64,000 bases of DNA. Origin: a virus. Below the pieces are notes generated by a model. It was given only the letters and a program-made list of their open reading frames with translations. It was not told where the DNA came from and ran no database searches. Positions within the stretch are counted from its first letter, which is position 1; every line of letters starts with the position of its first letter. This document shows positions 40,468 to 57,503 of this stretch, piece by piece. A program made the translations under genes and the position numbers. The stretch spans positions 62,001-126,000 of the IMG/VR virus record IMGVR_UViG_3300037348_000049, one strand, 5' to 3'.

Positions 40468-40570
40468 TTCTGTATCCACTTTTTTACCAGTTTCAAATTA
40501 TTTCCACAGATAGATTACTTTTTCCTTGCAAGTGTGCTACTATTGACTCAACACTAAAAAAGGAGAAAAG

Positions 40571-40864
40571 ATGACACAAAGGATTTACTGGTCAGACATT
40601 ATTGAATGTGACGACCAACTGTTCGAGAACCTAGACACACTAATTGCGGTAGCAACTCAGACACCACAATGTTTCGGCTTTTGGAGTTCGGGTTCGGACT
40701 ATGAAATGGTAAGCGTGGACACTAATGACGAAATGGAATTGGTAGTCACCTACACAGACATTGACAACTATGACGACAATGGCGATGAGATTCGCAAAAC
40801 TGTAGTTGAAAAACTCGACTACACCTATGGGAAAGAACTAGCAGTTCTAGTAGGGAGCGACTAA
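40571..40864 (+). CDS. Acidic hypothetical protein, first gene of the class A array
   Basis: 97 residues, acidic: IYWSDIIECDDQLFENLDTL, TPQCFGFWSSGSDYEM and TYTDIDNYDDNGDEIRK. Strong RBS (AAAAAAGGAG). Stop overlaps the next ATG as TAATG. No family recognised. Confidence 0.6.
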   Translation: MTQRIYWSDIIECDDQLFENLDTLIAVATQTPQCFGFWSSGSDYEMVSVDTNDEMELVVTYTDIDNYDDNGDEIRKTVVEKLDYTYGKELAVLVGSD

Positions 40865-41628
40865 TGCCGAACTGGGTATCGAACAGCGTTAGGGTTACAG
40901 GACTCGAAGCCGAGGTTCAGAGATTCATAGGGCAGGCAAAAGCTATGCCAAATACTTTTGTTGAGACAGATGAGGACAAGTGGGATTCCGAACTCTCATT
41001 CGCCAACTTTATTGCGCCACCACAGGAAAGCATTGACTCGGGAGAATACCACGAAACTAAAGGCTGGGTTGAGGGCAAGGAGTCTGGCAGCTCAGAGAAT
41101 AATTGGTATAACTTCAACAGCCGAGAGTGGAGCACCAAGTGGGACGCTGGCGAGGTTTTTCTAACAGCCGAAGCAGCAAGCGCCGACTTCGAATTTCACA
41201 CAGCTTGGTCGCCACCAGAGCCAGTTTTCAGAGCTATGGTTGAGCAGTTTCCTGAGCTACAGTTCGCCATTTCATACGAGGAAGAGCAAGGCTGGGGTGG
41301 AGAGTTGGTCGGTGCAAAAGGCGAGCTGGCTATTGTCGAGGAATACGACATTCCAGATTCTCACGCCGACTATGTTGAGCGTGACAGAGAAGATAGTTGC
41401 GCCTGTTCTTGGGCAGAGGATAAGGACGATTGGTATGACGATTGCCCGAACAAACGAGAAATCTTTGTTCAAGTTACAAAGGTGTATCGTCTCAGTTCGA
41501 GCGACGCAACAAACGCTAGAGCCGAATACTTAGAGATTGAAATGGGCGAAAAGAAATTGCCTGTTGAAGAATCTGACTTGGGTTCGTTTGTTCTCGTAGA
41601 CGAAGATGGTAAGCCTCTACAGGACTAA
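40864..41628 (+). CDS. Api92-like / DUF1281-type protein
   Basis: 254 residues beginning MPNWVSNSVRVTGLEAE, then WYNFNSREWSTKWDAGE, FEFHTAWSPPEPVFRAMVEQFP and EEQGWGGELVGAKGE. These are the hallmarks of the Api92-like family (ferredoxin-like domain, PNWCSN start). These are widespread phage and plasmid proteins of unknown role. A Cys-rich acidic insertion (CACSWAEDKDDWYDDC) lies near the end. Followed by a terminator. Confidence 0.8.
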   Translation: MPNWVSNSVRVTGLEAEVQRFIGQAKAMPNTFVETDEDKWDSELSFANFIAPPQESIDSGEYHETKGWVEGKESGSSENNWYNFNSREWSTKWDAGEVFLTAEAASADFEFHTAWSPPEPVFRAMVEQFPELQFAISYEEEQGWGGELVGAKGELAIVEEYDIPDSHADYVERDREDSCACSWAEDKDDWYDDCPNKREIFVQVTKVYRLSSSDATNARAEYLEIEMGEKKLPVEESDLGSFVLVDEDGKPLQD

Positions 41629-41655
41629 TCACAGACCAACCTCTTACAAAGATTG

Positions 41656-41682
41656 ACCTCACTTCGGTGGGGTTTTTCTTTT
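41656..41682 (+). terminator. Intrinsic terminator
   Basis: ACCTCAC-TTCG-GTGGGGT, then TTTTCTTTT. Confidence 0.9.
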
Positions 41683-41833
41683 GTCTAAAAGCTGTATCCA
41701 CTTTTTTACTAGGTTAGCGCCGTTACCAAACTGTTACCAAACTTTTCACGAAAGATTTGACATTACCTCTTTTTCGTGGTTTGATTCTCTTATCGCCAAA
41801 AGGTGAGAGACACGAAACGAAAGGGGAAGTCAA

Positions 41834-42472
41834 ATGACTTCATTATCAGCACCACTAGTAGCACCGAAAATTATAGGCAAGGCAGTCTACCTAGAATTGG
41901 TAGTAAACCCTGCACTCACTCCTGACCAGCAGAGAACTGTTTGCGGTTGGCATGGGGCAGCAAGTAGCACGAAACAAATGATTATCTTTCCTCAGTATCA
42001 GGACGATACTGGCAAGATTATGCAGTCAGTTGTAATGACCAGAACTGTTTCAGAACACTCGCCTAGGGCGCAGTGGGATACCAGCTACACCAGAGGCTTC
42101 GCCAAGTTGGACGAACCAGAAATGGGAGTCGTTAGTGGACACCACTCCGACTACACAAATGTAGAGGACTACTCAAAAGAGGAATTTGACGAGCTTCCAG
42201 TTCTTCAGCAAGTAGCGTCCAGACAGCGCACTTTGAGGCTAACCTTGAAGCGTGAATTACTCGGCACAGCTTATGGCGAAGTCATAAATGGTGAGCGTGA
42301 GGATTCCGTAGTCCAAGCTTGGGTAGTTCGTGACGATACTCCACTTGCCGTTGAGATTACCAACGAGGACATGGCACTTTTGCATGACGAGAGCAAGACA
42401 CCTCAAGCAGTTATTCGCCGAATAAATAAAGTTCGTGAATCAGTCTTGACATTTCCAACCAAACTGGCATAA
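41834..42472 (+). CDS. Hypothetical protein upstream of MoxR-vWA genes
   Basis: 212 residues. Contains LELVVNPALTPDQQRTVCGW, HSDYTNVEDYSKEEFDELPV and RQRTLRLTLKRELLGTAYGE. Co-located with the ATPase and vWA genes, so may belong to the same module. Strong RBS. The end contains the next gene's promoter. Confidence 0.6.
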   Translation: MTSLSAPLVAPKIIGKAVYLELVVNPALTPDQQRTVCGWHGAASSTKQMIIFPQYQDDTGKIMQSVVMTRTVSEHSPRAQWDTSYTRGFAKLDEPEMGVVSGHHSDYTNVEDYSKEEFDELPVLQQVASRQRTLRLTLKRELLGTAYGEVINGEREDSVVQAWVVRDDTPLAVEITNEDMALLHDESKTPQAVIRRINKVRESVLTFPTKLA

Positions 42473-42473
42473 T
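42446..42473 (+). promoter_or_regulatory. Promoter for the MoxR-like gene
   Basis: TTGACA (42446-42451), 16 bases, CATAAT (42468-42473), within the 3' end of the preceding gene. The same GCATAATTAGAC sequence follows the -10 box of the next promoter at 43654. Confidence 0.7.
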
Positions 42474-42518
42474 TAGACCAGACACAAAACGACACGAAAA
42501 CTAAAGGGAGACACGAAA

Positions 42519-43595
42519 ATGTATCTAAAAAAGAGTATTTATCTAGCACCAGCACCAACGCTCAATAGCGCCTTGGACTTTGACTTCGAGAAGCTTTTGA
42601 CAGAGCTATCGTCCACAGTAGCACTACCAACTTTGGGCGTGACTACCTCGGTTCTTGACAGCCTAATGCGACCAGAGGGCAGGGCAACACTTCGCTCGAA
42701 GGCAGGGGCAAGAGCAGTCAAGCCACTTGGGATAGACTTGGGAGCAGAAACCCCAAGCCTTGCAGAGACAGTTGAGACAATGGAAACCACAGATTCGCTC
42801 GAAGGCTCGGAGAGTTATCCTCGACCAAATGGTGAGGACTACTATGCTCGACCTTGGGGCGACCACACAGATGTCGAGGTCCTGAGAAAAGCCAGAGCCG
42901 AAGGTCATGCCATTCTACTTTATGGAGTCCCAGGAACAGGCAAGACAGCTTTAGTTGAAGCTGCTTTTCCAGAGGAACTTTATACCATTCTTGGCTCAGG
43001 CGATACTGAGGTTGCCGATTTGGTCGGTGGCTATGTCCAGACTCAGAGCGGTGGCTTCGAGTGGGTGGACGGAGTTTTGACCAGAGCTGCTTCTGAGGGC
43101 AAGGCACTTCTGATTGACGAAATTGGGTTGATTGACCCGAAGGTAATGTCAGTTGTCTATGGGCTAATGGACGGAAGGCGTGAGCTAGTCGTAACTCAGA
43201 ATCCAGAGCGTGGCACTATCAAGGCTAAAGAGGGCTTCTATGTCGTTTCAGCCACGAATCCGAATGTCGCAGGTGTTCGGTTGAGCGAGGCGCTTCTATC
43301 GAGGTTCGCTATTCACGCCGAAATGACCACAGATTGGGCGCTTGCTAAAAAGCTTGGCGTTCCCCAGAGTGCCGTAGTTGCTTCTCAGAATCTATCCAAA
43401 AAGGTAGAGAATGGTGAGACCTCATGGTCGCCACAATTCCGAGAGCTTCTAGCTTTCCGAGACTTGGCAAAGAGCTTTGGAACTAAGTGGGCAGTTCAGA
43501 ATCTACTTGCCAGCGCACCAGAAATTGACAGACCAGTTGCCTCAGATGTATTTGGTCGAGTATTCGGCGAAGCGATAATGCCAGCCAAGATTTAG
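42519..43595 (+). CDS. MoxR/CobS-like AAA+ ATPase
   Basis: 358 residues. A non-conserved N-terminal region (1-105) precedes an AAA+ module: Walker A GVPGTGKTALVEA at about 136-143, GSGDTEVADLVGGYVQT, Walker B ALLIDEIGL near 196, sensor 1 VVSATNPN and the arginine region LLSRFAIHAE. The pore loop segment is typical of MoxR and the CobS chelatase ATPase. Paired with a vWA protein downstream, it is expected to remodel or load a metal-linked or protein complex. Confidence 0.9.
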   Translation: MYLKKSIYLAPAPTLNSALDFDFEKLLTELSSTVALPTLGVTTSVLDSLMRPEGRATLRSKAGARAVKPLGIDLGAETPSLAETVETMETTDSLEGSESYPRPNGEDYYARPWGDHTDVEVLRKARAEGHAILLYGVPGTGKTALVEAAFPEELYTILGSGDTEVADLVGGYVQTQSGGFEWVDGVLTRAASEGKALLIDEIGLIDPKVMSVVYGLMDGRRELVVTQNPERGTIKAKEGFYVVSATNPNVAGVRLSEALLSRFAIHAEMTTDWALAKKLGVPQSAVVASQNLSKKVENGETSWSPQFRELLAFRDLAKSFGTKWAVQNLLASAPEIDRPVASDVFGRVFGEAIMPAKI

Positions 43596-43615
43596 TTGAG
43601 TATTCGTGTCCTCGA

Positions 43616-43683
43616 CTAATGGGGAGTGTCAGGAAAGTTTTTCTGAAATGGACTTGACACTCCTACCCATTAGGGTGCATAAT
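43616..43683 (+). promoter_or_regulatory. Large inverted repeat containing a promoter
   Basis: CTAATGGGGAGTGTCA (43616-43631) is matched by TGACACTC-CTA-CCCATTAG (43655-43673), 16 pairs with a 3-base bulge and a 23-base loop. TTGACA (43654-43659) and CATAAT (43678-43683, 18-base spacing) lie in or beside the right arm. The structure can attenuate, or be an operator for, transcription of the vWA gene. Confidence 0.75.
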
Positions 43684-43724
43684 TAGACACAAGATAGAAA
43701 CACCAGACAAAAGGGAGATTCAAA

Positions 43725-45560
43725 ATGGCACACTACAAAGTAAAGGGTTCAAGGCTTACAAGTCGAGAGACAACAGCTAGTCCAGAGTGGCTAAAAGTTG
43801 GAAGCCAGATAAGCAAATTTGTCAATGACCTCGCACTTCGAGGCGACCTAGTTGTATTCGTGGGTGGTGACGAAGTTGCCGAGGGCGAAGCAGTTGCGGC
43901 TTACTACGCCGACATAGCCGAGATTGAGATAAACGCTTCAAAGGCGTTCGGTGAAATTACCAAGCCAGAGTTCGTTGGAGATTTCAATGAGCGCACAGTC
44001 CAGTATGAGTTCCCAATGGCAACTGGAATCATTTTCCACGAAGCACTCCACGCCAAGCACACAGCTTGGGACACAAACTACTTGCAGACTCAGCTAGACA
44101 ACCAAGAAGGTCAAGCTTTCATGTTGCTAGAAGAATCCAGAATCGAAGCCAAGGGCGTTCTTGAGCGACCACTAAACAGAGAATTCCTCAGAGCCTCAGC
44201 TATTGAAATGGCGCTCGAAGGCGTGGACGAAAAGCAACTGGCAACTCTCGGTAGCGACCTATGGGTCGTTGCGAATCTTGCAGGGCTATCGCTTGCTCGG
44301 TATGACGCCAGAGTTTTGGACAGGTCAGATGTCATAGACATTTACAAGATTGTTGTTTCCATTCTCGGTGAAAAGCTCTATGAAGATTTGCGCCTAGTTT
44401 GGGTTGCGTTCCAAAAGCTCACAGTTCCACAGGTCGAAGAAGCTATTACGCTCTCCAAGAAGTGGGTCGAGCTATTGCGTGAGGCAGACCCCGAAGGTGA
44501 GCCACAGGGAACAGGCTCAGCTTTTGAGTCAAGCGAAGGCGAAGGCGAAGGCGAAGGCAAGTCTCCAAGTGAAGGCGTTCAAAAGTTGCTCGATAAAATG
44601 AGCGACCAAGGAATGACCACAGAGCTTTCAGCTAACGACAAGTTGGCAGACCAAGAGACTCAAGAGAAGTGGCAGGACGAAGCCAAGGCTCGCCAAGAGG
44701 AATCCAAGTCCAAGAATCAGAAACAGGACACAGCTCGAAAAATCTTTGACAAGAGCCATAATGCAACTGGCTCAAACTCAAACTCGACAGTCAGCGAGCG
44801 CCGAGCGCCAACTGGCGGTGAGCGAGCCAGCGCAGTCAAGGTGGCGCAGATGTTAGACAAGGCAAAGTATCGTGAGCGTTCGGTTCATGTTCGCAAGACT
44901 CAAGCGCCACAGGGTCGCCTGATTGCTCGTAATGCCGTCCAGAATAAGGCAAGCGAAGCTATGGGTCGCCGAGGCGAACTACCAGCTTGGAAGTCGAAGT
45001 CTCGCAAGCACACAGACGACCCGACACTACGCCTCGGTATCATGGTGGACATTTCAGGGTCAATGGGTTCTGCTATGCAAGCTATGGCGACCACAGCGTG
45101 GGTCATGGGCGAGGCAGGTCGCCGAATCCAAGCCGAGACAGCTATGGTTTACTACGGCTCGGGTGTATTCCCTACTCTCCGCAGAGGTCAGAGGCTAGAC
45201 GAAGTTTCTGTCTACACCGCACCAGACGGAACTGAAAAGTTCGGCGAAGCTTGGAGCGCACTAGACGGCGAACTCGGACTGACTTTTGGAACAGGCGTGA
45301 GAATGGTTGTCAATGTATCGGACGGACAATACACACCTCAAGAGCGTGAGAGAGCTTTGGCTATGCTCACCGAGTGCAAGCAAAACGGCGTGGCAGTTCT
45401 TTGGATTACTCCAAGAGATTGCTACGGCATGCCAGCGAGCAACCTTATCCGACAGGCGAACTGGGGCGTGCATTTAGACCAGCTCGACACCGCTCAGATT
45501 GCGTTGCTAGTCGGCAAGTCGGCAAGCGAAGCTTTGGGGAAGGTTGGGGCAAGCGCCTGA
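43725..45560 (+). CDS. vWA / metalloprotease-like protein, CobT-like partner of the ATPase
   Basis: 611 residues. N-terminal region with zinc-protease motif HEALHAKH (about 105-112) followed by a helical domain with EESRIEAKG. A low-complexity acidic linker (EGEGEGEGK) leads into a Lys/Gln region and a vWA domain with MIDAS LGIMVDISGSMGSAMQ (about 437), then the VSDGQYTP and ITPRDCYG segments. The order (metal-binding N-terminus, charged linker, vWA) matches CobT-like and bacterial MoxR-partner proteins found in some phages. Function unknown, probably assembly or metal-chelation related. Confidence 0.85.
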   Translation: MAHYKVKGSRLTSRETTASPEWLKVGSQISKFVNDLALRGDLVVFVGGDEVAEGEAVAAYYADIAEIEINASKAFGEITKPEFVGDFNERTVQYEFPMATGIIFHEALHAKHTAWDTNYLQTQLDNQEGQAFMLLEESRIEAKGVLERPLNREFLRASAIEMALEGVDEKQLATLGSDLWVVANLAGLSLARYDARVLDRSDVIDIYKIVVSILGEKLYEDLRLVWVAFQKLTVPQVEEAITLSKKWVELLREADPEGEPQGTGSAFESSEGEGEGEGKSPSEGVQKLLDKMSDQGMTTELSANDKLADQETQEKWQDEAKARQEESKSKNQKQDTARKIFDKSHNATGSNSNSTVSERRAPTGGERASAVKVAQMLDKAKYRERSVHVRKTQAPQGRLIARNAVQNKASEAMGRRGELPAWKSKSRKHTDDPTLRLGIMVDISGSMGSAMQAMATTAWVMGEAGRRIQAETAMVYYGSGVFPTLRRGQRLDEVSVYTAPDGTEKFGEAWSALDGELGLTFGTGVRMVVNVSDGQYTPQERERALAMLTECKQNGVAVLWITPRDCYGMPASNLIRQANWGVHLDQLDTAQIALLVGKSASEALGKVGASA

Positions 45561-45648
45561 ACTAACCCATAACGGATTGCCTATCCAGAGGTCGAGCTAC
45601 CCTCAGTTACCGTTTTTCTGAGGATAAGTTCCTGACGGACAGGTAACA

Positions 45649-45692
45649 GAAACCCCAACTACCTTTACCCCCTTTTTGGTAGTTGGGGTTTC
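45649..45692 (+). terminator. Long hairpin after the vWA gene
   Basis: GAAACCCCAACTACC (45649-45663) pairs perfectly with GGTAGTTGGGGTTTC (45678-45692). The loop contains TTTACCCCCTTTTT. A separate CTCAG/CTGAG hairpin is at 45602-45622. Confidence 0.8.
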
Positions 45693-45907
45693 GCCATACC
45701 CTGAGGTCAGCAACAGCAAAGCCCGCACTTTTGACCGCACATGAAAAGTCAAGCCCGCCGATCTCGAAACCAAATCCCGTATCCACTTTTTTACTGACTT
45801 CAAACTATTTTCAGAAAAGGCTTCCCTTTTGCTAGGTAACCCTGCTAGGATTGGAGTATCCAATTAGGGCGAAACAAAAGTAGCCCAAAAAAGAAAGGGG
45901 GGACAGA

Positions 45908-46240
45908 ATGGCAACAGCCACTTCGTCCCAGACAGCGTCAGAAGGCACTGTCAAAGTTTCACGACAAATCGTGGAACTAATCAACGAGCTTTCCGAAGTT
46001 CGTTCCACCTACAACACAGCGAAGGCTCGTGTTGAGGAACTCCGCAAGGAAGTTCTATCGCAGGTTGGCACAGGCAACTTGACCCTTATCCACCACAACA
46101 TTGAAGTGGCTCGCATTGTCGAGAGCAACCCAGCTCGTGTTGACCCTAAGTTCTTGGAAGAGAACTTCCCAGAGGCGTATGAGGCTTCCTTGAAGTCCAG
46201 CCAGCAGTTCACCATTCGTTCCGTCACACGAACGAAATAA
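45908..46240 (+). CDS. Small helical protein of the PEAYEA type, copy 1
   Basis: 110 residues: VELINELSEVRSTYNTAKAR, then NIEVARIVESNPARVDPKFL and a C-terminal NFPEAYEASLKSSQQFTIRS. The 55346 product has the same layout (coiled N-terminal half, R-x-R, FPEAYEACFKADKTVFG). This end motif recurs in small phage proteins, but no function is known. Preceded by a class A repeat (45779) with AAAGGGG RBS. Confidence 0.65.
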   Translation: MATATSSQTASEGTVKVSRQIVELINELSEVRSTYNTAKARVEELRKEVLSQVGTGNLTLIHHNIEVARIVESNPARVDPKFLEENFPEAYEASLKSSQQFTIRSVTRTK

Positions 46241-46241
46241 C

Positions 46242-46274
46242 CAGAAGGGGTTGGGCGAAAGCTCAGCCCTTTTC
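46242..46274 (+). terminator. Intrinsic terminator
   Basis: AGAAGGGGTTGGGC loop GAAA, then GCTCAGCCCTTTTCT; ten or more pairs with one bulge. Confidence 0.8.
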
Positions 46275-46390
46275 TCACCACCAGTTCCGTATCCACTTTT
46301 TTACTGGAGTTCCGTAAAAACTTCACACCAGAGTTGCAAAGTTGCATCAAGTGTGATTAGATACATACATCAAACGAAAAGGGAGACAAA

Positions 46391-46747
46391 ATGAACACAC
46401 CACTAGAGCTAGAAGAAATCACAGCTTTGAGCCTGTCAATAACAGGCGTGTTAGTCGAAAATTATTTGAAGGAAAGCTACGCCGACCCAACTATGTATCG
46501 CGCATTGAGAGTCGCTTGCGGGCTTGCCGAGCAGTATAAGGAAAGGCTTGCGCTAAACGGCTCACCAGAGCAGATGATACAGGAAGTAGAAGAATTAGTG
46601 AATAACCTAAAAGTTACCGCTATGGAATGCGGCGAGATAGTCCAGAAGATTATCGAGGATAACGGCTGGGAAACCGAGGCTACTGGTTGGGACAGACCGC
46701 ACAACCACGACAACTGTGACCACGGCGAGGACGGCGAGGATAACTGA
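46391..46747 (+). CDS. Helical hypothetical protein with His/Asp tail
   Basis: 118 residues: helical body (ALRVACGLAEQYKERLALNG) and an acidic His-containing tail (DRPHNHDNCDHGEDGEDN) that could bind metal. Class A promoter at 46289. TGATG overlap with the next gene. Confidence 0.6.
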   Translation: MNTPLELEEITALSLSITGVLVENYLKESYADPTMYRALRVACGLAEQYKERLALNGSPEQMIQEVEELVNNLKVTAMECGEIVQKIIEDNGWETEATGWDRPHNHDNCDHGEDGEDN

Positions 46748-46932
46748 TGCAAACCATAGTGCTACGGCTACACATTGACCAACCGATACCGAACGGCGAG
46801 GAAGGCGAGCGTATTATCAACGCCTACATAGACGAGCTTGCCAAAACGAACGGCACGCTTAGCTGGACTTCTGTGGACTGGGACGGCTTGGAGATTGACG
46901 AAACCGAGCATAGATTGGACGGACACTCTTGA
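46747..46932 (+). CDS. Small hypothetical protein
   Basis: 61 residues: VLRLHIDQPIPNGEEGERI, then TSVDWDGLEIDETEH. Its stop overlaps the next start (TTGA). Second gene of a three-gene class A operon. Confidence 0.6.
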   Translation: MQTIVLRLHIDQPIPNGEEGERIINAYIDELAKTNGTLSWTSVDWDGLEIDETEHRLDGHS

Positions 46933-47246
46933 CAATGAGATTCAGGCACGCACTAGGCGAGGTAGTTCGTGAGCAACGGCTTGCTAAAAGCCTTACCCTA
47001 AGAGGCGTGTCCACTAAGGGGTTCGTGTCGATAGGACACCTGTCGGACATTGAACGGGGAGTGAAAGAAGCCTCGTCAGATACGATCGAAGCGATTGCCA
47101 ACGGACTGGGTGTCCAGAGCTATTGGCTGATTATCGAAGCTGGCTATCGAATGACGGGCGAAGCCACCTTTATTCCAGATACGCCCGAAAGTTTATTTAT
47201 CCGAAATTCTCGTTGGGTCGAGCAATACTCTGACCTAGTTATCTAG
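46929..47246 (+). CDS. ClgR-like XRE-family HTH regulator
   Basis: 105 residues. The HTH core LGEVVREQRLAKSLTLRGVS and FVSIGHLSDIERGVKEASSD follow the actinobacterial ClgR pattern (SxGYLSEVERGxKEAS). ClgR activates clp protease and stress genes. Start is TTG 46929 (4-base overlap) or ATG 46935. It sits inside the mini-operon array and is a candidate regulator of it. Confidence 0.8.
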   Translation: MTMRFRHALGEVVREQRLAKSLTLRGVSTKGFVSIGHLSDIERGVKEASSDTIEAIANGLGVQSYWLIIEAGYRMTGEATFIPDTPESLFIRNSRWVEQYSDLVI

Positions 47247-47260
47247 GGCAAAACCCGAAA

Positions 47261-47290: not shown

Positions 47291-47395
47291 GCATTTACTG
47301 TGGCGTATCCACTTTTTTACGAACTTCTAGACTGGATTAGGTGTTTTGCTAATTCTGTAGTAAGGTTTAGATAACAACAACGAAAGGGGCAACAA

Positions 47396-47605: not shown

Positions 47606-47621
47606 GTTCGCAACAGCGCCG

Positions 47622-47650: not shown

Positions 47651-47762
47651 CGTGCCGTAGGACTGTATCCACTTTTTTACTGTCGCCGATTAGTTTGCCG
47701 ACAACTTGCGGAACGCCGTAATTCGTAGTAAGGTTTAGCTATCAACGAAAAAGGGAGAGAAA

Positions 47763-48157: not shown

Positions 48158-48159
48158 GA

Positions 48160-48460: not shown

Positions 48461-48574
48461 GTCTCGGCGCTCGCCGTATCCACTTTTTTACTTGCCGTAA
48501 ATAATCTTGCCGTAGTGACTTGCGCAATTAGGGGGAACTATGCGATACTTGAGTATCAACAGAAAGGGAAGATA

Positions 48575-48997: not shown

Positions 48998-49106
48998 GCC
49001 CTGGAGCGTATCCACTTTTTTACTGAGTTTAGATAGACAGGGAGTTGGCTTGACATCTGCCGATAACTCTGAGATACTGATACTAATCAGAAAGAAGGGC
49101 AACAAA

Positions 49107-49495: not shown

Positions 49496-49607
49496 GCTGA
49501 GGTGTATCCACTTTTTTACTACGACTTCGCCGGCGCTCGCAGAAAGAACTTGCGCAATACCGGGCGTTCTGCTAGGTTTATACCAACAACGAAAGGGAGG
49601 AACTCAA

Positions 49608-50361: not shown

Positions 50362-50471
50362 TGGGCGGGAGTGTATCTACTTTTTTACTGCCGTTTCTAC
50401 GCCGTTCACAAGAAGTTGCACTTTGTCTGCCGAGTGTGCTAGAGTTTGAGTAACAACAAAGGGAGAACAAA

Positions 50472-51137: not shown

Positions 51138-51157
51138 CTACCTAACCCCCTAAGAAA

Positions 51158-51200
51158 AAACCCCGTCGACCTTACCCCCTTTTGGTCGACGGGGTTTCTT
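51158..51200 (+). terminator. Intrinsic terminator
   Basis: AAACCCCGTCGACC (51158-51171) pairs with GGTCGACGGGGTTT (51184-51197); loop contains TTACCCCCTTT. Confidence 0.9.
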
Positions 51201-51354
51201 TGTGCCGTTCGTAAAAAGTTACAGCAACTCCAGGCGTATCCACTTTTTTACTCGGCGCTCGCAATTCTGCCGATGGACTTGCGTTTTCGGTGTTTCTTGA
51301 TAGGCTTTGATAAGTAACATAAGTTACTAAGTCGCAGAATGAAGGGGCAACAAA

Positions 51355-51555
51355 ATGGGAGTAAAGTATCCAGAGATTGAAGTTCAACTCACTGGGAATG
51401 ATGGAAATGCGTATTCAATTATGGGCGCAGTTTCAAAGGCGCTAAAGCGTGCCGAAGTTCCTCAGATAGAAATTGACCAATACATAAATCGCTCAATGAG
51501 TGGCGACTACGATAACTTGCTACAGACAGCTGCTAGTTGGGTTCAGGTTCGCTGA
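51355..51555 (+). CDS. Conserved actinobacterial small protein
   Basis: 66 residues: KYPEIEVQLTGNDGNAYSIM, then ALKRAEVPQIEIDQYI and SGDYDNLLQTAASWV. I recognise this pattern in actinobacterial genomes and phages (hypothetical). Class A repeat at 51236. Confidence 0.7.
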   Translation: MGVKYPEIEVQLTGNDGNAYSIMGAVSKALKRAEVPQIEIDQYINRSMSGDYDNLLQTAASWVQVR

Positions 51556-51899
51556 TGGCTAAGTTAGCGCTGCAAGTTGCACCTGATGGCGAGATTACTG
51601 AGCTAGACCTAGATTCGAACGCTTTGAGCGTGCTACAAGCTGCCGTTGATGGCTTGATTGAAGCCGTAGACCTAGCCAACGATTTAACCCTATGGGTGAA
51701 TGAAGAAGGGCTACTAAGGAACGACTTGAAGCTGAACCTAATCGCCCAAGCTTTTTATTCTGCGCCTATTATGGGAACTATTGTTTTCACTGGTGGAACT
51801 GATGATGAAGGTGAGACACTAGGGCTTGATTCCACAAACGCAGCGAGTATCGAGCGAGTGTGCCAAATTTTCAGAGATGCGTTCAGTGACCTGAGCTGA
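51555..51899 (+). CDS. DUF3846 family protein
   Basis: 114 residues from ATG 51555 (TGATG overlap). ALQVAPDGEITELDLDSNAL, AVDLANDLTLWVNEEGLLRN and GTIVFTGGTDDEGETLGL fit DUF3846, common in actinobacteria and phages with unknown function. Confidence 0.8.
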   Translation: MAKLALQVAPDGEITELDLDSNALSVLQAAVDGLIEAVDLANDLTLWVNEEGLLRNDLKLNLIAQAFYSAPIMGTIVFTGGTDDEGETLGLDSTNAASIERVCQIFRDAFSDLS

Positions 51900-51913
51900 T
51901 GACCAAACAAACT

Positions 51914-51946
51914 AACCCCCGTCAAAAGTTGGCGGGGGTTTTTTTG
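51914..51946 (+). terminator. Intrinsic terminator
   Basis: AACCCCCGTCA, short A/G loop, TTGGCGGGGGTT, then seven T. Confidence 0.95.
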
Positions 51947-52092
51947 CTGCCTTAGTTTGCAGCGGGAGCGTATCTACTTTTTTACTAATCTATACCCCAA
52001 AAAATCGAACACTTGTTCGCTTGCATAGGTTGGGTAATCGTGCTATCTTTATCTTGTAGAAATCAGAAATCCAACAAACAAAGGGGCAACAA

Positions 52093-52434
52093 ATGAACAA
52101 GGAACTTCAAGCAGAATTAGTCTCAGACCTAATCGACGCCGCAGGCTATGGAATCAACTGGGCAGTGGAAGCTGTCCAGGACGATGCCGCCCAGACTTAC
52201 ACACTTACCCTAGACGACGACGCTGCCGAAGAAGCTGGCAAGCCTGAGGTTGTAGTCACATACGCTCAGATTCGCACAGCCATTCGCAAGATTGCCAAGG
52301 GTGGAGTTTTGAATCCAGTGCTAACAAGCTCAGCTAAGGACTTCGTGTTCCGTCCTGACGAAGCAGACCTAGACAGCGATTTTGCTGATGCCGCAATTCA
52401 GATTGCAGTATTCGGGGAGGTGGTTTTTGGCTAA
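52093..52434 (+). CDS. Hypothetical protein
   Basis: 113 residues: LVSDLIDAAGYGINWAVEAV, TLTLDDDAAEEAGKPEVVVT, DFVFRPDEADLDSDFADAAI. Class A repeat at 51970. It resembles phage proteins of unknown function. Its terminator overlaps the DnaA-box cluster. Confidence 0.65.
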   Translation: MNKELQAELVSDLIDAAGYGINWAVEAVQDDAAQTYTLTLDDDAAEEAGKPEVVVTYAQIRTAIRKIAKGGVLNPVLTSSAKDFVFRPDEADLDSDFADAAIQIAVFGEVVFG

Positions 52435-52448
52435 CCCCCTCAGGGGAG

Positions 52449-52486
52449 TTATCCACAGACTTATCCACACCCTGTGGATAACTTTT
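52449..52486 (+). promoter_or_regulatory. Cluster of three perfect DnaA-box sequences within a hairpin
   Basis: TTATCCACA at 52449-52457 and 52461-52469, and its reverse complement TGTGGATAA at 52473-52481. The second and third form a 9-bp hairpin with a CCC loop followed by CTTTT, so it can also end transcription of the preceding gene. Either a DnaA-binding region (origin or regulatory) or a terminator that happens to match the consensus. Confidence 0.6.
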
Positions 52487-52621
52487 CCTGGACTCTGGTA
52501 TCCACTTTTTTACCAAGGTTCCGTGTCGGCGCTCGCGATTTGCTTTTGGCAGAAAATCCTGCTAGGCTATCGGAGTAGCCAATCAGCTACATACTTGGAA
52601 ACTAAATAAAGGGAGAGCAAA

Positions 52622-53167
52622 ATGACTAACATCATTACGCGTTGGGTAGGAATTGAATCCGAAGAATTGAATCCAGAGAATTGGATCCAAGTCGGATTTA
52701 GATTTACTGACCAAGGAGGACACCGAGAGTATCGCGTGTTTGGGCAGCTCTATGGTGAGGACTTTGAAGAGACTTATTCTTCAGACACCGACAACACTAA
52801 GTCGTTGGCATACAGTTACTTCGGAGAGCAGCTAAAGCGGATTGAAAGCGCGCAGACTTGGCTTTATGATGCTTATGAAGTCTGGGATCACGATTTTGTT
52901 GAAGTGGCTTGTGAGACTTGTGCGGTGGAGTTTGCCAAAGAACGTTCGCTTGAATGGAGCGGTGGGAAGTCTGCCGATTCATACACTGAAAATTCTGAGG
53001 AACTAAATGCAGGAGCGTCCTGTATCGCAAGCTACGCACTTGGCGATAGTGACTATCCACACACTTGTGTGTGCGGTGTTTACTTAGATACCCGATTCAC
53101 CACCGAAGGTGAGGACTATCTTCGAGAGAACTTCCCGAAGGGTGTTCAAAAGCTCTACAGCTACTGA
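52622..53167 (+). CDS. Hypothetical protein with zinc-knuckle-like Cys residues
   Basis: 181 residues: TRWVGIESEELNPENWIQVG, YRVFGQLYGEDFEETYSSD, and C-terminal CETCAVEFAKE...CIASYALGDSDYPHTCVCG. Acidic. Class A repeat at 52498. Unknown function. Confidence 0.65.
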   Translation: MTNIITRWVGIESEELNPENWIQVGFRFTDQGGHREYRVFGQLYGEDFEETYSSDTDNTKSLAYSYFGEQLKRIESAQTWLYDAYEVWDHDFVEVACETCAVEFAKERSLEWSGGKSADSYTENSEELNAGASCIASYALGDSDYPHTCVCGVYLDTRFTTEGEDYLRENFPKGVQKLYSY

Positions 53168-53177
53168 TCCAGGATTG

Positions 53178-53208
53178 AACCCTAGGGCTAACGCTCTAGG
53201 GTTTTTTC
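53178..53208 (+). terminator. Intrinsic terminator
   Basis: AACCCTAG, GGCTAACGCT loop, CTAGGGTT, then T-run. Confidence 0.9.
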
Positions 53209-53235
53209 TTGCCCAAAACTTTATTGCGGATTGAC

Positions 53236-53288
53236 TTGACACTATCTAATAAAGCTAGTAACCTAGAGTTACTAGCTAATCGGTTAGT
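53236..53288 (+). promoter_or_regulatory. Class B promoter plus leader hairpin
   Basis: TTGACA (53236-53241), 17 bases, TAACCT (53259-53264). The leader hairpin ACTAGCT-AATC-GGTTAGT, with GU pairs, lies at 53271-53288. Confidence 0.85.
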
Positions 53289-53318
53289 ATCCAGATTCAA
53301 TTTTCAAAGGGGTATCGT

Positions 53319-53561
53319 ATGCCAACACCAACCACCGCAGGAGCTATAACCACGCGGATTTTTGAAGTTCAAGATCGTATGATCGAGATCCACGAGATAC
53401 GCGACAACTTAGCCAAAGTTATTATGCAGAGCTTAGGCGATGGAACAATTCCAGGAATAAGCGTGGACAACCTAATCAGCTTTGCCGATAAGATTATTCC
53501 ACTGAACGCTGAGTTCGGAACCCTATCCGCCGAACACGCCGAACTTATGTCTGGAGACTAA
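53319..53561 (+). CDS. Small helical hypothetical protein
   Basis: 80 residues: GAITTRIFEVQDRMIEIHEI, then SVDNLISFADKIIPLNAEFG. AAAGGGG RBS. Class B promoter. Unknown. Confidence 0.6.
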   Translation: MPTPTTAGAITTRIFEVQDRMIEIHEIRDNLAKVIMQSLGDGTIPGISVDNLISFADKIIPLNAEFGTLSAEHAELMSGD

Positions 53562-53576
53562 AGTTCTTCAAGCGAG

Positions 53577-53606
53577 AACCCTAGGGTAATTCCTAGGGTT
53601 TTTTCT
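53577..53606 (+). terminator. Intrinsic terminator
   Basis: AACCCTAGG, GTAATT, CCTAGGGTT, then TTTTTC. Confidence 0.95.
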
Positions 53607-53632
53607 TGCCCAAAACTTTATTGCCGATTGAC

Positions 53633-53687
53633 TTGACACGATCCAATAAAGCTAGTAATCTATAGATAGATAACCAAGGGGGTTATC
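53633..53687 (+). promoter_or_regulatory. Class B promoter plus leader hairpin
   Basis: TTGACA (53633-53638), 17 bases, TAATCT (53656-53661). The leader hairpin GATAACC-AAGGG-GGTTATC lies at 53669-53687. Confidence 0.85.
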
Positions 53688-53703
53688 GGAAAAGGGATTC
53701 AGA

Positions 53704-53826
53704 ATGACAATTATCGCAACTTATCCAGATTTCAAAACCGTCACCGTGTCGGTTGATGCTTGGAACGCGGACGCCACCGTTGAAGCCTTTATGGAACTGG
53801 GCGCATTGTTCGTGACAACCAAGTAG
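53704..53826 (+). CDS. 40-residue hypothetical protein
   Basis: ATG 53704 with GGGATTC-type upstream: TIIATYPDFKTVTVSVDAW and TVEAFMELGALFVTTK. Single gene in its class B operon, so expressed on its own. Confidence 0.55.
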   Translation: MTIIATYPDFKTVTVSVDAWNADATVEAFMELGALFVTTK

Positions 53827-53845
53827 GGGCAACCCTATACCGATC

Positions 53846-53877
53846 ACCCCTAGTCTCTGGCTAGGGGTTTTCTTTTT
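53846..53877 (+). terminator. Intrinsic terminator
   Basis: ACCCCTAG, 7-base loop, CTAGGGGT, then TTTCTTTTT. Confidence 0.95.
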
Positions 53878-53998
53878 GCGAGCGCGAGTAGTCGGTATCC
53901 ACTTTTTTACGCACTGCTACTTGGGCGCGGGATCGAGTTGCGGTTTGTCGCTTAGCGTGGTAGAGTTGCACTACAACAACTAAACAAAGGGAGATAGA

Positions 53999-54169
53999 AT
54001 GCAAAAAGATACTACGCCTATTGCCGCCGACATCTACGAGAGAATCGAAATGTCAAAAAATGGTGACAAGGGAACTGTCTATGATGACTTGTCAGAGACT
54101 TTGGAATCTGGTAACTACCAAGAGTTCGAAGATTATTTCGGAGACACTGATCCTTTTGAATTCTTGTAA
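53999..54169 (+). CDS. Small acidic hypothetical protein
   Basis: 56 residues from ATG 53999: AADIYERIEMSKNGDKGTVY, then EFEDYFGDTDPFEFL. Class A repeat at 53895. Acidic end; not recognised. Confidence 0.6.
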   Translation: MQKDTTPIAADIYERIEMSKNGDKGTVYDDLSETLESGNYQEFEDYFGDTDPFEFL

Positions 54170-54185
54170 TTCAAAAAAACAATTA

Positions 54186-54214
54186 GCCCGCTAGAGATAG
54201 CGGGTTTTTTGTTT
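54186..54214 (+). terminator. Intrinsic terminator
   Basis: CCCGCTA, GAGA, TAGCGGG, then TTTTTTGTTT. Confidence 0.95.
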
Positions 54215-54224
54215 GCCGTAGAGC

Positions 54225-54281
54225 TTGACAAGTGACAACTTTAGTATTAGACTTTGGGTATCAACCCAAGGGGGGTTGGTA
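54225..54281 (+). promoter_or_regulatory. Class B promoter plus leader hairpin
   Basis: TTGACA (54225-54230), 17 bases, TAGACT (54248-54253). The leader hairpin TATCAACC...GGTTGGTA lies at 54259-54281, with a loop of CAAGGGG. Confidence 0.85.
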
Positions 54282-54294
54282 AAAAGGAGACAAA

Positions 54295-54537
54295 ATGACT
54301 AACCAGACTTACGAGAGAATAGCCAATGTTTCATCTTGGGCGACAATGCTAAGCGGGCTTATTTTTGTAGGCACACTTGCATCGATCCTTGACCTAAGCA
54401 AGGCGGGTTCCTGGTGGCAGAATGAACAGCTAATGCCGGCACTAGCAGACTTTGGTTTAGCTAGTGGTTGGGTAATGATAATTGCGGCGGTAACTTGGTT
54501 CTTGACTTACCGCCGTTACAACTACGGACAGAAATAA
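54295..54537 (+). CDS. Two-pass membrane protein
   Basis: 80 residues: two hydrophobic segments (SWATMLSGLIFVGTLASIL and ASGWVMIIAAVTWFLTY). Class B promoter. A phage membrane protein of unknown role. The next gene follows after 12 bases. Confidence 0.65.
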   Translation: MTNQTYERIANVSSWATMLSGLIFVGTLASILDLSKAGSWWQNEQLMPALADFGLASGWVMIIAAVTWFLTYRRYNYGQK

Positions 54538-54549
54538 AGGAGAGACACA

Positions 54550-54723
54550 ATGATCAGAATGGCATTGGTAAATCGAGTAGGCGTTAGCCACACGCTTAGT
54601 ATGGTTCAAGGCGAGACTACAGTTCCCACTTACTTGCTACAGGAGAGTGAGGAGTTCTTAGACTTGCTACGAACTGCCGTAGAGCTTGAAGAGCTTACCG
54701 ATTGGGTGAACGAGAACTTTTAG
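54550..54723 (+). CDS. Small acidic hypothetical protein
   Basis: 57 residues from ATG 54550 (AAAGGAGAG upstream): MALVNRVGVSHTLSMVQGE, then EEFLDLLRTAVELEELTDW. Second gene of the operon with the membrane protein. Confidence 0.6.
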   Translation: MIRMALVNRVGVSHTLSMVQGETTVPTYLLQESEEFLDLLRTAVELEELTDWVNENF

Positions 54724-54738
54724 GTTCGAGAGAAGATG

Positions 54739-54765
54739 CCCCGCTTTTGCGGGGTATTTTTTTGT
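54739..54765 (+). terminator. Intrinsic terminator
   Basis: CCCCGC, TTTT, GCGGGG, then TATTTTTTTG. Confidence 0.95.
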
Positions 54766-54863
54766 CTGGCGGGAGTTTGAGGTATCCACTTTTTTACGAA
54801 CTGTGATCATAGAGCGCCATCGAGTTGCTCTAAGCCATAGGAGCTGCTAAGCTAATCGTAGTT

Positions 54864-54878
54864 AGCCCAAGGGGGCTG
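54864..54878 (+). promoter_or_regulatory. Leader hairpin in a class A operon
   Basis: AGCCC-AAGG-GGGCT follows TTGCTC-N17-TAAGCT at about 54825-54853, in the same position as the class B leader hairpins. Confidence 0.7.
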
Positions 54879-54898
54879 CAAAATCAAAGGGGCAAAAA

Positions 54899-55138
54899 AT
54901 GTCAGTAATCGCCAAAAATCCTTTCCACAACTGGATTATGGAAAATCACCCAGATTTTTCAGACTTCATCAAGTTTGCCGGCAACATCGTCAGACTAAAC
55001 GCCGAGAGTCGTGGAACTCTTTTCGCCGTAGCAATCCCTGCCTACATCGCGCAGCATAACCTTGACTACGACAACGCGCTAGACGCGTTCATCGCTTATG
55101 AAGTATTCAAGCGCGAGCTTTGGGCTTCAAGGGCTTAG
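54899..55138 (+). CDS. Small hypothetical protein
   Basis: 79 residues: NPFHNWIMENHPDFSDFIKF, then TLFAVAIPAYIAQHNLDYDN. Class A repeat at 54782 with a leader hairpin. Function unknown. Confidence 0.6.
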   Translation: MSVIAKNPFHNWIMENHPDFSDFIKFAGNIVRLNAESRGTLFAVAIPAYIAQHNLDYDNALDAFIAYEVFKRELWASRA

Positions 55139-55150
55139 AGATCACACCGC

Positions 55151-55182
55151 AACCCCTAGGGCTAACGCTCTAGGGGTTTTCC
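55151..55182 (+). terminator. Intrinsic terminator
   Basis: AACCCCTAG, GGCTAACGCT, CTAGGGGTT, then TTCC. The same hairpin sequence is used at 57218. Confidence 0.9.
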
Positions 55183-55296
55183 ATTGTCTGGCGTGTCTCA
55201 CGCGTTGCGCGTGTTGCGGTATCCACTTTTTTACTAATTTCTGACACGCCCCGACATCGAGTTGCGCTAAGTCCTAATCCGTAGTAAGCTAGAGTT

Positions 55297-55314
55297 ACTA
55301 GCCAATCGGTTGGT
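55297..55314 (+). promoter_or_regulatory. Leader hairpin in a class A operon
   Basis: ACTAGCC-AATC-GGTTGGT, the class A counterpart of the 53271 hairpin, about 7 bases after the -10 box TAAGCT (55285-55290). Confidence 0.75.
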
Positions 55315-55345
55315 GTTCAAGTTCCACCAAGTAAAGGGGCAAAAA

Positions 55346-55699
55346 ATGTCAGTAACCACCAAGGCGCAAGCCACCACCACCAAGACCACCAAGGCGACCA
55401 AAGTAGTTGTAGGTCAAGTTCGTGAGTTGGTTGAACTACGCGCCGAAATCACACGCCTTGAGAAACTAAAGGTTGCGATTACCGCCGAAATCGAAATCGC
55501 TTTTGGGGTGAACAAGACTTCAAAGACTTCAGAGTTCGACACGCTTACTCACCAAGGTATCGAGTTCGCTCGCTACGATTGGAGAAGCCGTAAAGGGATT
55601 GATGAAGCCAAGTTGGCGCTAGAGTTTCCCGAAGCTTATGAAGCGTGTTTCAAGGCGGACAAGACCGTATTCGGGCTAGTCGTGTCGCTGTTCAAGTAA
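55346..55699 (+). CDS. Small helical protein of the PEAYEA type, copy 2
   Basis: 117 residues from ATG 55346 with AAAGGGG upstream. Helical region VRELVELRAEITRLEKLKV, then HQGIEFARYDWRSRKGID and FPEAYEACFKADKTVFG. Same architecture as the 45908 product. Class A repeat at 55219. Confidence 0.65.
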   Translation: MSVTTKAQATTTKTTKATKVVVGQVRELVELRAEITRLEKLKVAITAEIEIAFGVNKTSKTSEFDTLTHQGIEFARYDWRSRKGIDEAKLALEFPEAYEACFKADKTVFGLVVSLFK

Positions 55700-55700
55700 C

Positions 55701-55743
55701 CAGAATACCGAGAGTGCCTCCCGAGAAATCGGGGGGTATTCTG
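55701..55743 (+). terminator. Hairpin after the PEAYEA gene
   Basis: CAGAATACC with GGTATTCTG, inner CCCGA/TCGGG. No long T run, so it may be a weak terminator or stabiliser. Confidence 0.65.
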
Positions 55744-55847
55744 CTGTCTGGATTTTTGGCGGGGCGGGGGTGTATCTACTTTTTTACTAGAGTTTTTTGC
55801 TGTGGGAAAGAACTTGACAAGTTTGCCGTGACCGTGATAGGATTGAC

Positions 55848-55875
55848 TTATCAAGTCAAAGGGGCTTGAGGATAA
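55848..55875 (+). promoter_or_regulatory. Leader hairpin in a class A operon
   Basis: TTATC with GATAA and AAG with CTT, separated by a 9-base loop and a bulge; lies after TTGACA-N18-TAGGAT (55814-55843). Confidence 0.6.
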
Positions 55876-55884
55876 GGGGCAAAG

Positions 55885-56148
55885 ATGAGTAAGCAAAAGG
55901 CATTCGCCAAAGTAGCAGAGTTAGGCGCTGCACTCGTTGATGATGGCGGTGTGTATCAGCTCGAAGCACCCGCTGGAAAAATCTGCGGTGGTGGTGACAC
56001 TCACACTAGGGCGTTCAGTTACGAGGACGGCATCAAGGACCCGTGGAGTGGCAGGACGGTGTGGCAGGATGTTCTTGAGGAACTGAAGGATGGCTTTATA
56101 GATTGCCCTTATAGGGCGTCGGGGTGTGACTACTGCGATCCCGAGTAG
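55885..56148 (+). CDS. Small hypothetical protein with Cys pairs
   Basis: 87 residues: KAFAKVAELGAALVDDGGVY, then CGGGDTHTRAFSYEDG and CPYRASGCDYCDPE at the end. Possibly zinc-binding. Class A repeat at 55772. Confidence 0.6.
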   Translation: MSKQKAFAKVAELGAALVDDGGVYQLEAPAGKICGGGDTHTRAFSYEDGIKDPWSGRTVWQDVLEELKDGFIDCPYRASGCDYCDPE

Positions 56149-56169
56149 CCACACACTTGCACGCGAAAG

Positions 56170-56197
56170 ACCCCGTCCTAGTGACGGGGTTTTTTAT
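56170..56197 (+). terminator. Intrinsic terminator
   Basis: ACCCCGTC, CTAGT, GACGGGGT, then TTTTTATTG. Confidence 0.95.
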
Positions 56198-56208
56198 TGC
56201 CGATTGAC

Positions 56209-56264
56209 TTGACACACTTATGCGCCATACAGTAAGCTTTAGATAGATAGCCAAGGGGGCTATC
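56209..56264 (+). promoter_or_regulatory. Class B promoter plus leader hairpin
   Basis: TTGACA (56209-56214), 18 bases, TAAGCT (56233-56238). The leader hairpin GATAGCC-AAGGG-GGCTATC lies at 56246-56264. Confidence 0.85.
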
Positions 56265-56280
56265 GGATAAGGGGTTCAAG

Positions 56281-56445
56281 ATGACTAAGCCATTCGCCGT
56301 AGTGTTCGCAGGAGACTTGGGAGATTTCTTTACTCCAGAGTTTTACGCCACCGAAGCAGCTGCCACTGCACGACTAATTGAGTGCCGTAACACTCTCAAA
56401 GACCCTAGCCAAGTCAAAGTGATGTTGCTAGTCGAGCTTGACTAG
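56281..56445 (+). CDS. 54-residue hypothetical protein
   Basis: From ATG 56281: KPFAVVFAGDLGDFFTPEFY then EAAATARLIECRNTLKDPS. A hydrophobic start and end suggest a compact alpha/beta fold. Monocistronic class B operon. Confidence 0.6.
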   Translation: MTKPFAVVFAGDLGDFFTPEFYATEAAATARLIECRNTLKDPSQVKVMLLVELD

Positions 56446-56465
56446 TCACACCAGTTCACCACGCG

Positions 56466-56490
56466 ACCCCTACTTTCGAGTGGGGGTTTT
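56466..56490 (+). terminator. Intrinsic terminator
   Basis: ACCCCTACT, TTCG, AGTGGGGGT, then TTTTCGCG with an outer CGCG pair. Confidence 0.9.
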
Positions 56491-56529
56491 CGCGTTACCA
56501 AGTTGTTATCAAAAACTTCCTGGATTGAC

Positions 56530-56585
56530 TTGACACGCGTGCCGTTATCCTGATAAGTTGAACTTAGTTAGCCCAAGGGGGGCTG
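56530..56585 (+). promoter_or_regulatory. Class B promoter plus leader hairpin (duplicate 1)
   Basis: TTGACA (56530-56535), 18 bases, TAAGTT (56554-56559). The leader hairpin AGCCC...GGGCT lies at 56570-56585. The 81-base module up to the ATG is nearly identical to that at 56869. Confidence 0.85.
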
Positions 56586-56601
56586 CTAGAAGGGGTTCAA
56601 A

Positions 56602-56802
56602 ATGACTTACTACATTCTCAGGAACACCACCACCACTGGTGAACTTGCTTACGCGCATAAAGGCGCTTACCTAACCCGCAGTGGCGCGCAGACTGCTGCC
56701 GACGGGATAAACCCCTACGGGCATCCTTTTACTTTTGCGGTTTATTCTGCCGAAGAACTCAACACCGAGTTTCTAGCTAAAGGCATAAGGGTTAGCGACT
56801 AA
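56602..56802 (+). CDS. Small hypothetical protein
   Basis: 66 residues: TYYILRNTTTTGELAYAHKG, then NPYGHPFTFAVYSAEELN. A beta-rich fold, resembling small proteins of phages that act near RNR genes. Function unknown. Confidence 0.6.
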   Translation: MTYYILRNTTTTGELAYAHKGAYLTRSGAQTAADGINPYGHPFTFAVYSAEELNTEFLAKGIRVSD

Positions 56803-56816
56803 CCACGCCACACCGC

Positions 56817-56850
56817 AACCCCTTAGCCATCACGGCTAGGGGGTTTTCCA
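56817..56850 (+). terminator. Intrinsic terminator
   Basis: AACCCCTTAGCC with GGCTAGGGGGTT, then TTCC. Confidence 0.9.
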
Positions 56851-56877
56851 TTGCCCAAAAGTTTTTTATGGATTGAC

Positions 56878-56932
56878 TTGACACGCGTGTCGTTATCCTG
56901 ATAAGCTGAACTTAGTTAGCCCAAGGGGGGCT
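56878..56932 (+). promoter_or_regulatory. Class B promoter plus leader hairpin (duplicate 2)
   Basis: TTGACA (56878-56883), 18 bases, TAAGCT (56902-56907), hairpin at 56918-56932. Three base changes relative to duplicate 1 in 81 bases. Confidence 0.85.
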
Positions 56933-56949
56933 GCTAGAAGGGGTTCGAA

Positions 56950-57201
56950 ATGACAACATTCATTCTTGACCAGAGTAACACTGGTGGAGTATTCCTTGAC
57001 GGGATGCCACGCATTGCGGTGCTTATCGCTGCTACCGAAGACGATGCTTATGCTCAAGCGCGTGAGCTAGGCGTAGACTTCATGGATTTCTGCGAGTGCT
57101 GCGGCACTAGGTGGAACATTGCCGCTTATGATCCAAAGTTTCACGGCGACTTGGATGAGCTGCTAGCGTCACGCCGTGACTCCGATTCATTCAAGTGGTA
57201 A
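56950..57201 (+). CDS. Small hypothetical protein with Cys pair
   Basis: 83 residues: MTTFILDQSNTGGVFLDGM, then LIAATEDDAYAQARELG and CECCGTRWNIAAYDP. The C-X-C-C group may bind a metal. Similar proteins occur in phages. Unknown. Confidence 0.6.
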   Translation: MTTFILDQSNTGGVFLDGMPRIAVLIAATEDDAYAQARELGVDFMDFCECCGTRWNIAAYDPKFHGDLDELLASRRDSDSFKW

Positions 57202-57217
57202 CTAGCCACACTGCTTC

Positions 57218-57250
57218 AACCCCTAGGGCTAACGCTCTAGGGGTTTTCCA
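57218..57250 (+). terminator. Intrinsic terminator
   Basis: AACCCCTAG, GGCTAACGCT, CTAGGGGTT; same sequence as the terminator at 55151. Confidence 0.95.
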
Positions 57251-57362
57251 TTGTCTGGCGTGTCTGGCGTGCCTAGCAAGAGCGTCAGAGCGCGTCAATG
57301 GCGCTGCCTAGGCAATCACACTAGGGCAATAGGCTAAGCCGTTAGATTCGATCCTGGAGTGT

Positions 57363-57392
57363 CTGGCGCACTGGCGCACTGGCGCACTGGCG
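57363..57392 (+). repeat. 8-base tandem repeat CTGGCGCA
   Basis: Three perfect copies of CTGGCGCA plus CTGGCG, immediately upstream of the last class A repeat. May vary in copy number between isolates. Confidence 0.8.
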
Positions 57393-57503
57393 GGTATCCA
57401 CTTTTTTACTAAGGTATTTACTACGGGTAGCAGCTTGACAAACTCTAATACCGTGATAGTCTTATTCCATAAGTAGATAGCTTATAAAAAACAAAGGGAT
57501 AAA

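Follow-up and report, generated by a model that had tools for sequence, protein, structure and literature searches.

We analysed a 64,000-nucleotide stretch of viral DNA (the window; bases 62001-126000 of a 129,571-base IMG/VR virus record), in which one oriented 17-mer precedes each of 18 mini-operons. With a probability of roughly 0.75, this 17-mer serves as operator for an activator with sequence specificity, most likely phage-encoded, that would switch on the 18 mini-operons. The activator would sit whole helical turns upstream of the promoter, usually centred at about -70 and alternatively at about -61, -80 or -90, and, from one face of the helix, would contact host sigmaA-type RNA polymerase, the alpha C-terminal domain being the probable target (alpha-CTD; class I activation). 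This contact would make up for the weakness of a TTGC-type -35 box. The spelling of the proposed operator differs by phage lineage and is near-identical across the operons of each, operator and regulator specificity seeming to change together.

The 18 copies of the 17-mer reported in the initial annotation are confirmed before the mini-operons, all on the + strand and with 0-1 mismatches each (0.23 expected when 3 mismatches are allowed). All 18 contain the 16-mer GTATCYACTTTTTTAC without a mismatch, and it occurs nowhere else in the 129,571-base record, all oriented copies being confined to the mini-operon block. In 15/18 promoters, a -35 TTG begins 41-46 bases past the element start (mean 1.9 and maximum 7 for other 6-base windows). 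The annotation had set the -35 hexamer 41-46 bases downstream of the element in 16 operons; that interval holds when counted from the element's start, not from downstream of it, and 16/18 is reached only if the poor -35 boxes that follow the elements at 40472 and 45779 are admitted. The element-to--35 distance had a standard deviation (s.d.) of 1.4 (13 tabulated promoters), compared with 13.3 for the distance to the start codon, and the element is therefore tied to the promoter rather than to the gene start. Positional conservation far exceeded that of shuffled controls both in the window and in relatives, the window phage sharing its spacing with three divergent sister phages (10/18, 5/14, 7/14, and 16/24 vs 0.2-0.5 in shuffles). 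Terminator-like sites were observed tens of bases before several copies (e.g., 41655, 47256, 48968, 51914, and 53846). A consensus promoter scan gave no excess (16 vs 15.7), because it requires near-consensus hexamers, which these promoters lack, and Rfam at gathering threshold had no match in 39500-58500.

We then searched 333 non-redundant element-downstream regions from 20 contigs for the pattern TTGNNN-N16..18-TANNNT irrespective of distance, and obtained 235 matches vs 22.8 in shuffled sequence. The -35 boxes started 31-34, 40-46 (mode 42), 50-54, or 60-65 bases from the element, the gaps in between being near-empty, with a best period of 10.2 (power 50.6; null maximum 8.1). Outside the main peak lay 93 distances, and these were in phase with it (z 5.6). 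Consistently, extended -10 boxes searched alone (TGNTANNNT) numbered 146 vs 31.7 and peaked at 56, 65, 75, and 85 (power 42.0 vs 7.6). As for class I operators, the upstream sites thus lie at whole-turn intervals (peaks 33/42/52/62, period about 10.2). Setting the -35 start to -36, from which we infer the transcription starts, would place the element centres at about -61, -70, -80, and -90, which are class I activator positions, and the element itself at about -78 to -62, close to the -80 to -62 proposed initially. In the case of CRP, class I sites lie at -61.5 or further upstream, and activation is lost on the opposite helix face (PMC2859248).

Helical phasing would also be predicted if the T-tract of the element, a T5-6 run common to the T-type lineages, acted through generic host alpha-CTD or curved DNA. 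We consider this unlikely, since the non-T-tract half (GTATCYAC) is as invariant within a genome as the T-tract and differs between the close relatives G0 and G2, phage-specific spellings would be needless for a generic host alpha-CTD, and element and -35 box are about 25 bases apart. The same gap, together with the half of the element that is not an A/T tract, led us to reject an UP element, which is A/T-rich and lies directly upstream of the -35 box (-40 to -60).

Activation at a distance is further supported by the -35 boxes. Across all lineages, TTGACA was found at 17/186 element promoters vs 28/63 element-less promoters of the same regions (Fisher 4e-9), and TTGC at 81/186 vs 9/63 (2e-5); the TTGACA depletion agrees with the weak -35 boxes expected of class I-dependent promoters. 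Among the 18 element promoters of the window, 12 -35 boxes were TTGC-type, in line with the at least 11 weak TTGCNN forms noted before, and four were TTGACA (elements at 41694, 49008, 55772, and 57394). The six element-less neighbouring operons all have the perfect TTGACA boxes attributed to them (53236, 53633, 54225, 56209, 56530, and 56878; 53236..56883, + strand), with elements 14-17 in between. The initial proposal of an activator site compensating for a weak -35 box gains from the TTGACA depletion, from the whole-turn alternatives and from the recurrence of the same geometry in about 20 lineages whose elements diverge. Alternatively, the element could be a stoperator-like or upstream-looping site of repression or silencing, with the mini-operons kept silent during lysogeny or up to a given time; looping would account for helical phasing equally well, and stoperators likewise occur in many oriented copies. 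Such a site is nonetheless quite improbable: weak -35 boxes would be needless at repressed promoters, whereas here the element accompanies TTGACA depletion, the element does not overlap the promoter, and a lysogeny module was not apparent in the block, in which no systematic search for one was made.

All elements of the window lie on the + strand. Element 1 (40472..40488, ending in TACC) has a weak promoter (ATTACT 40514, TACTAT 40538) with no TTG at 41-46. Element 2 (41694..41710), of the MoxR/VWA operon, is followed by TTGACA at 41757 (offset 63, two turns further) and a -10-like sequence at 41780, and element 12 (51970..51986) has its better promoter one turn further (TTGCAT 52021, TATCTT 52044; offset 51). 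Element 3 (45779..45795) precedes TTCCCT 45822 and TAGGAT 45846. TTGC-type boxes follow element 4 (46289..46305; TTGCAA 46334, TTAGAT 46357), whose operon includes an XRE gene, element 5 (47305..47321; TTGCTA 47346), element 6 (47665..47681; TTGCGG 47706, TAAGGT 47729), element 7 (48476..48492; TTGCGC 48520, GATACT 48544), element 9 (49504..49520; TTGCGC 49550, TAGGTT 49573), element 10 (50373..50389; TTGCAC 50416, TAGAGT 50440), element 11 (51236..51252; TTGCGT 51279, TAGGCT 51301), element 13 (52498..52514; TTGCTT 52540, TAGGCT 52563), element 14 (53895..53911; TTGCGG 53938, TAGAGT 53961), element 15 (54782..54798; TTGCTC 54825, TAAGCT 54848), and element 16 (55219..55235; TTGCGC 55262, TAAGCT 55285). 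The remaining TTGACA boxes belong to element 8 (49008..49024; TTGACA 49050, GATACT 49073), element 17 (55772..55788; TTGACA 55814, TAGGAT 55838), and element 18 (57394..57410; TTGACA 57435, TAGTCT 57457). Elements 10, 12, and 17 are GTATCTA variants, 10 and 17 reading GTATCCA in the closely related contig G001.

The search of related phages proposed with the initial annotation gave about 20 contigs with a version of their own in the same place. Sister phages, whose VWA protein is 65% identical, lack the window 17-mer; their equivalent mini-operon region contains a related element, likewise oriented, in 14-24 copies (GTATCCACTTTTTGAT and near variants in G5/G6, TGTATTTATTTTTTGT in G4, and ATAGTTATTTTTTCTG in G3). 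A VWA-alignment search widened the set to the about 20 related uncultured phage contigs with multi-copy versions, among whose variants are GTATTTATTTTTTGTC, TAGTTATTTTTTCTG, GTATTCGTTTTTTCC, GTATTCATTTTTTATC, and GTTTTCACTTTTTCA. Copies are near-identical inside each genome, and orthologous cassettes keep the weak TTGC -35 box while carrying the element type of the resident phage, as in the cassettes orthologous to that of element 9 in G3, G4, and G6. G2 is about 95-98% identical to the window in most comparison intervals of its coding sequence (41000-45500), and has GTATTCATTTTTTCT, of another type, at three orthologous promoters, where the intergenic flanks are 16-40% diverged. Outside G001, an exact scan of viral contigs for the 16-mer gave only single matches, probably due to chance; a scan with the B-type 15-mer was discarded, this pattern being too short and chance matches being among the matches listed. 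We also rejected a DnaA box or replication origin (TTATNCACA), as the ends do not agree and it is absent from variants such as TAGTTATTTTTT and GTATTTATTTTTT. Judged from these sequences, the arrangement is, beyond what the initial annotation described, family-wide, lineage-specific, and helically phased, and would work like class I activation.

A conserved oriented 17-mer before every operon would also be found if the element were itself a promoter, recognised by a phage sigma factor or RNA polymerase, T7-type promoters being alike in kind. This is extremely improbable, since the element keeps helical phase with a distinct sigma70-type promoter and nine phage records yielded no sigma region 2 (the control was positive in 10 genomes). 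A search with PF00940 (phage RNA polymerase) gave no match, and neither did its control.

Comparison of G000 with G001 revealed one mini-operon missing and two replaced by a different one, with the junctions at the element. The element 12 cassette is wholly missing from G001, with its junction at the element, and that of element 15 is replaced there from the element onward. These differences fit an exchange of element-started cassettes, and a short shared sequence would give the same. They could suggest a primary role of the element in recombination or as a cassette boundary for mini-operon shuffling, which is very unlikely, since a short sequence common to cassettes yields such junctions without a dedicated function and a boundary role leaves promoter phasing and weak -35 boxes unexplained.

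To return to the proposed activator, we compared all window-genome proteins of up to 400 aa between seven near-complete T-element genomes and five near-complete relatives without the element. Five families (g4, g28, g153, g101, and g119) were present in 7/7 of the former and 0/5 of the latter, two of them, g101 and g119, being helix-turn-helix proteins. The first (35824..36075, +; 83 aa) is small and MerR/Xis-like, with HTH_17 below cut-off and a profile match to PDB 4j2n Gp37. The second (46935..47246, +; 103 aa) is XRE/ClgR-like and encoded in an element-bearing operon, with HTH_3 above cut-off and profile matches to ClgR (5woq/3f51); it was present in 18/18 T-type contigs tested and in 10 others. 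As the protein binding the element, g119 is disfavoured by its presence in these 10 other contigs and by a recognition helix that is nearly invariant while the elements vary. The WhiB or ClgR-like regulator suggested initially was not borne out: no link to the element was found for WhiB g52/g30, and the ClgR-like protein did not covary with it. The activator may tentatively be sought in another phage protein; g101 is a possible candidate of slightly lower standing, g119 a doubtful one, and a host factor would be more doubtful still.

Several observations weigh against the activator reading. No particular regulator is supported, nor can the system be assigned to any named activator family. The 7/7 vs 0/5 contrast is confounded by common descent. 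Covariation with element sequence was absent for g119 (partial r -0.09) and weak and non-significant for g101 (partial r 0.16, p 0.07); block-wise tests of both proteins were likewise not significant, and Mantel tests relating element distance to 12 protein families gave nothing convincing allowing for multiple tests (g101 p 0.07, g109 p 0.04, and g113 p 0.03). Moreover, 3/18 window promoters have no TTG at 41-46, some lineages have few scorable promoters (L375 4/16, L456 5/20, and L383 5/12), and the G2 contig end carries one window-type (G0) copy, which may reflect recombination or an assembly join. Every relative in which the element was found is uncultured.

The 64.8-kb contig G001 is about 97-99% identical to the window record over most of its length and spans the join between the record's end and its start; the window genome is therefore, on this sequence evidence, circularly permuted or circular, and nearly complete. 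The closest TerL match was Actinomycetia phage DSL-LC01 (72.6%), followed by large Microbacterium phages. DSL-LC01 is a metagenome-assembled phage from Dishui Lake (PMC10611076). An actinobacterial host is likely because of these TerL affinities and of two WhiB-like proteins in the window genome. A megablast of the mini-operon block against phage records gave no match. Two genes that look by eye like tryptophan halogenases (16334-19739) were unmatched in the sister contigs compared, and DSL-LC01 has one annotated tryptophan halogenase. At 23626-23701, ARAGORN calls a tRNA-like gene with a four-base anticodon (gtta).

Other repeats were also observed. In the window, a terminator-like inverted repeat with two DnaA-box-like halves (TTATCCACA-CCC-TGTGGATAA) lies just upstream of element 13 (52448-52481), and GGCGCTCGC recurs beside four elements (48467, 49533, 51255, and 52529); several relatives have an excess of GCGCTCGC (L369 contig, 17 copies on + against an expected 1.5). 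A different promoter core, CCTGATATAATWR, an extended -10, is present as many as 21 times in relatives that lack the T-tract element (L389, L391, L394, L396, L401, L421-L424, L428, and L429); L396 and L401, the two long contigs of this type tested, lack both g101 and g119. DSL-LC01 (L207) shows another multi-copy promoter type at 23590-43303, with 22 copies of CTAAAGWTGTTATA with an extended -10, often followed by ACGACGAAAGGACA. Long compound A-rich elements with repeated AATTA motifs stand after terminators and ahead of TTTGACT in L463, L471, and L473, with a TGTGAAAGACT motif where the usual -10 would be. L131-L137 and L431-L434, which share the gene family of window position 40864, have GCAAAAAGTAAAAA / AGTAAAAAGTAAAAA repeats, sometimes immediately 5' of ATG, and the intergenic regions of L369, L377, and L386 contain many degenerate GATC-containing repeats (GATCTAGC, GATCGATC) and TTCGTTAGAAGTT-like repeats.

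Among known systems, P2 Ogr and phi29 p4 are phage late activators that act on host RNA polymerase. By arrangement, the present system can be likened to these and to Mu C, in which a small phage activator offsets poor core promoters. Mu C acts at four promoters (lys, I, P, and mom) (PMC4461284), compared with 14-24 per genome and several integer-turn spacings here. CRP class I sites of Escherichia coli are alike in lying upstream of the -35 box, with a centre at about -61.5 or beyond, and in depending on helix face (PMC2859248), while the present element is non-palindromic, contains a T-tract, is usually centred at about -70, and serves a phage regulon. T4 middle promoters are similar in that they number in the tens and combine a repeated element with a poor -35 box and a good -10 or TGn; the MotA box is centred at -30, replacing the -35 box, 12 +/- 1 bp from the -10 (PMC2988021), whereas our element begins about 65 bases before the -10 and about 42 before the -35 start, and is not a MotA box. 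The SAS/ESAS of Cluster K mycobacteriophages (GGGATAGGAGCCC), also repeated and intergenic ahead of small actinophage genes, lie near start codons (PMC12699233) and differ in sequence from the T-tract element, whose position is fixed relative to the promoter rather than to the start codon. We found no description of this arrangement in the open-access literature searched. The system appears uncharacterised so far, because no record of the annotated phage collection has a full-length match to the ClgR-like candidate g119.

We tentatively suggest an undescribed, widespread class I-type system of uncultured actinophages, in which lineage-specific operators would change fast and in concert with the activator, regulon genes might be transcriptionally insulated from co-infecting relatives, and cassettes could be exchanged and re-tagged. 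If the activator reading is true, this would be a phage-wide regulon with an unusually clear natural spacing record: hundreds of promoters in about 20 lineages reveal the tolerated distances between element and promoter, which follow the helical rule of CRP. The element would then serve as an address tag for uncharacterised small genes of uncultured phages, and the family would offer a setting in which to study the joint change in specificity of an activator and dozens of its sites.
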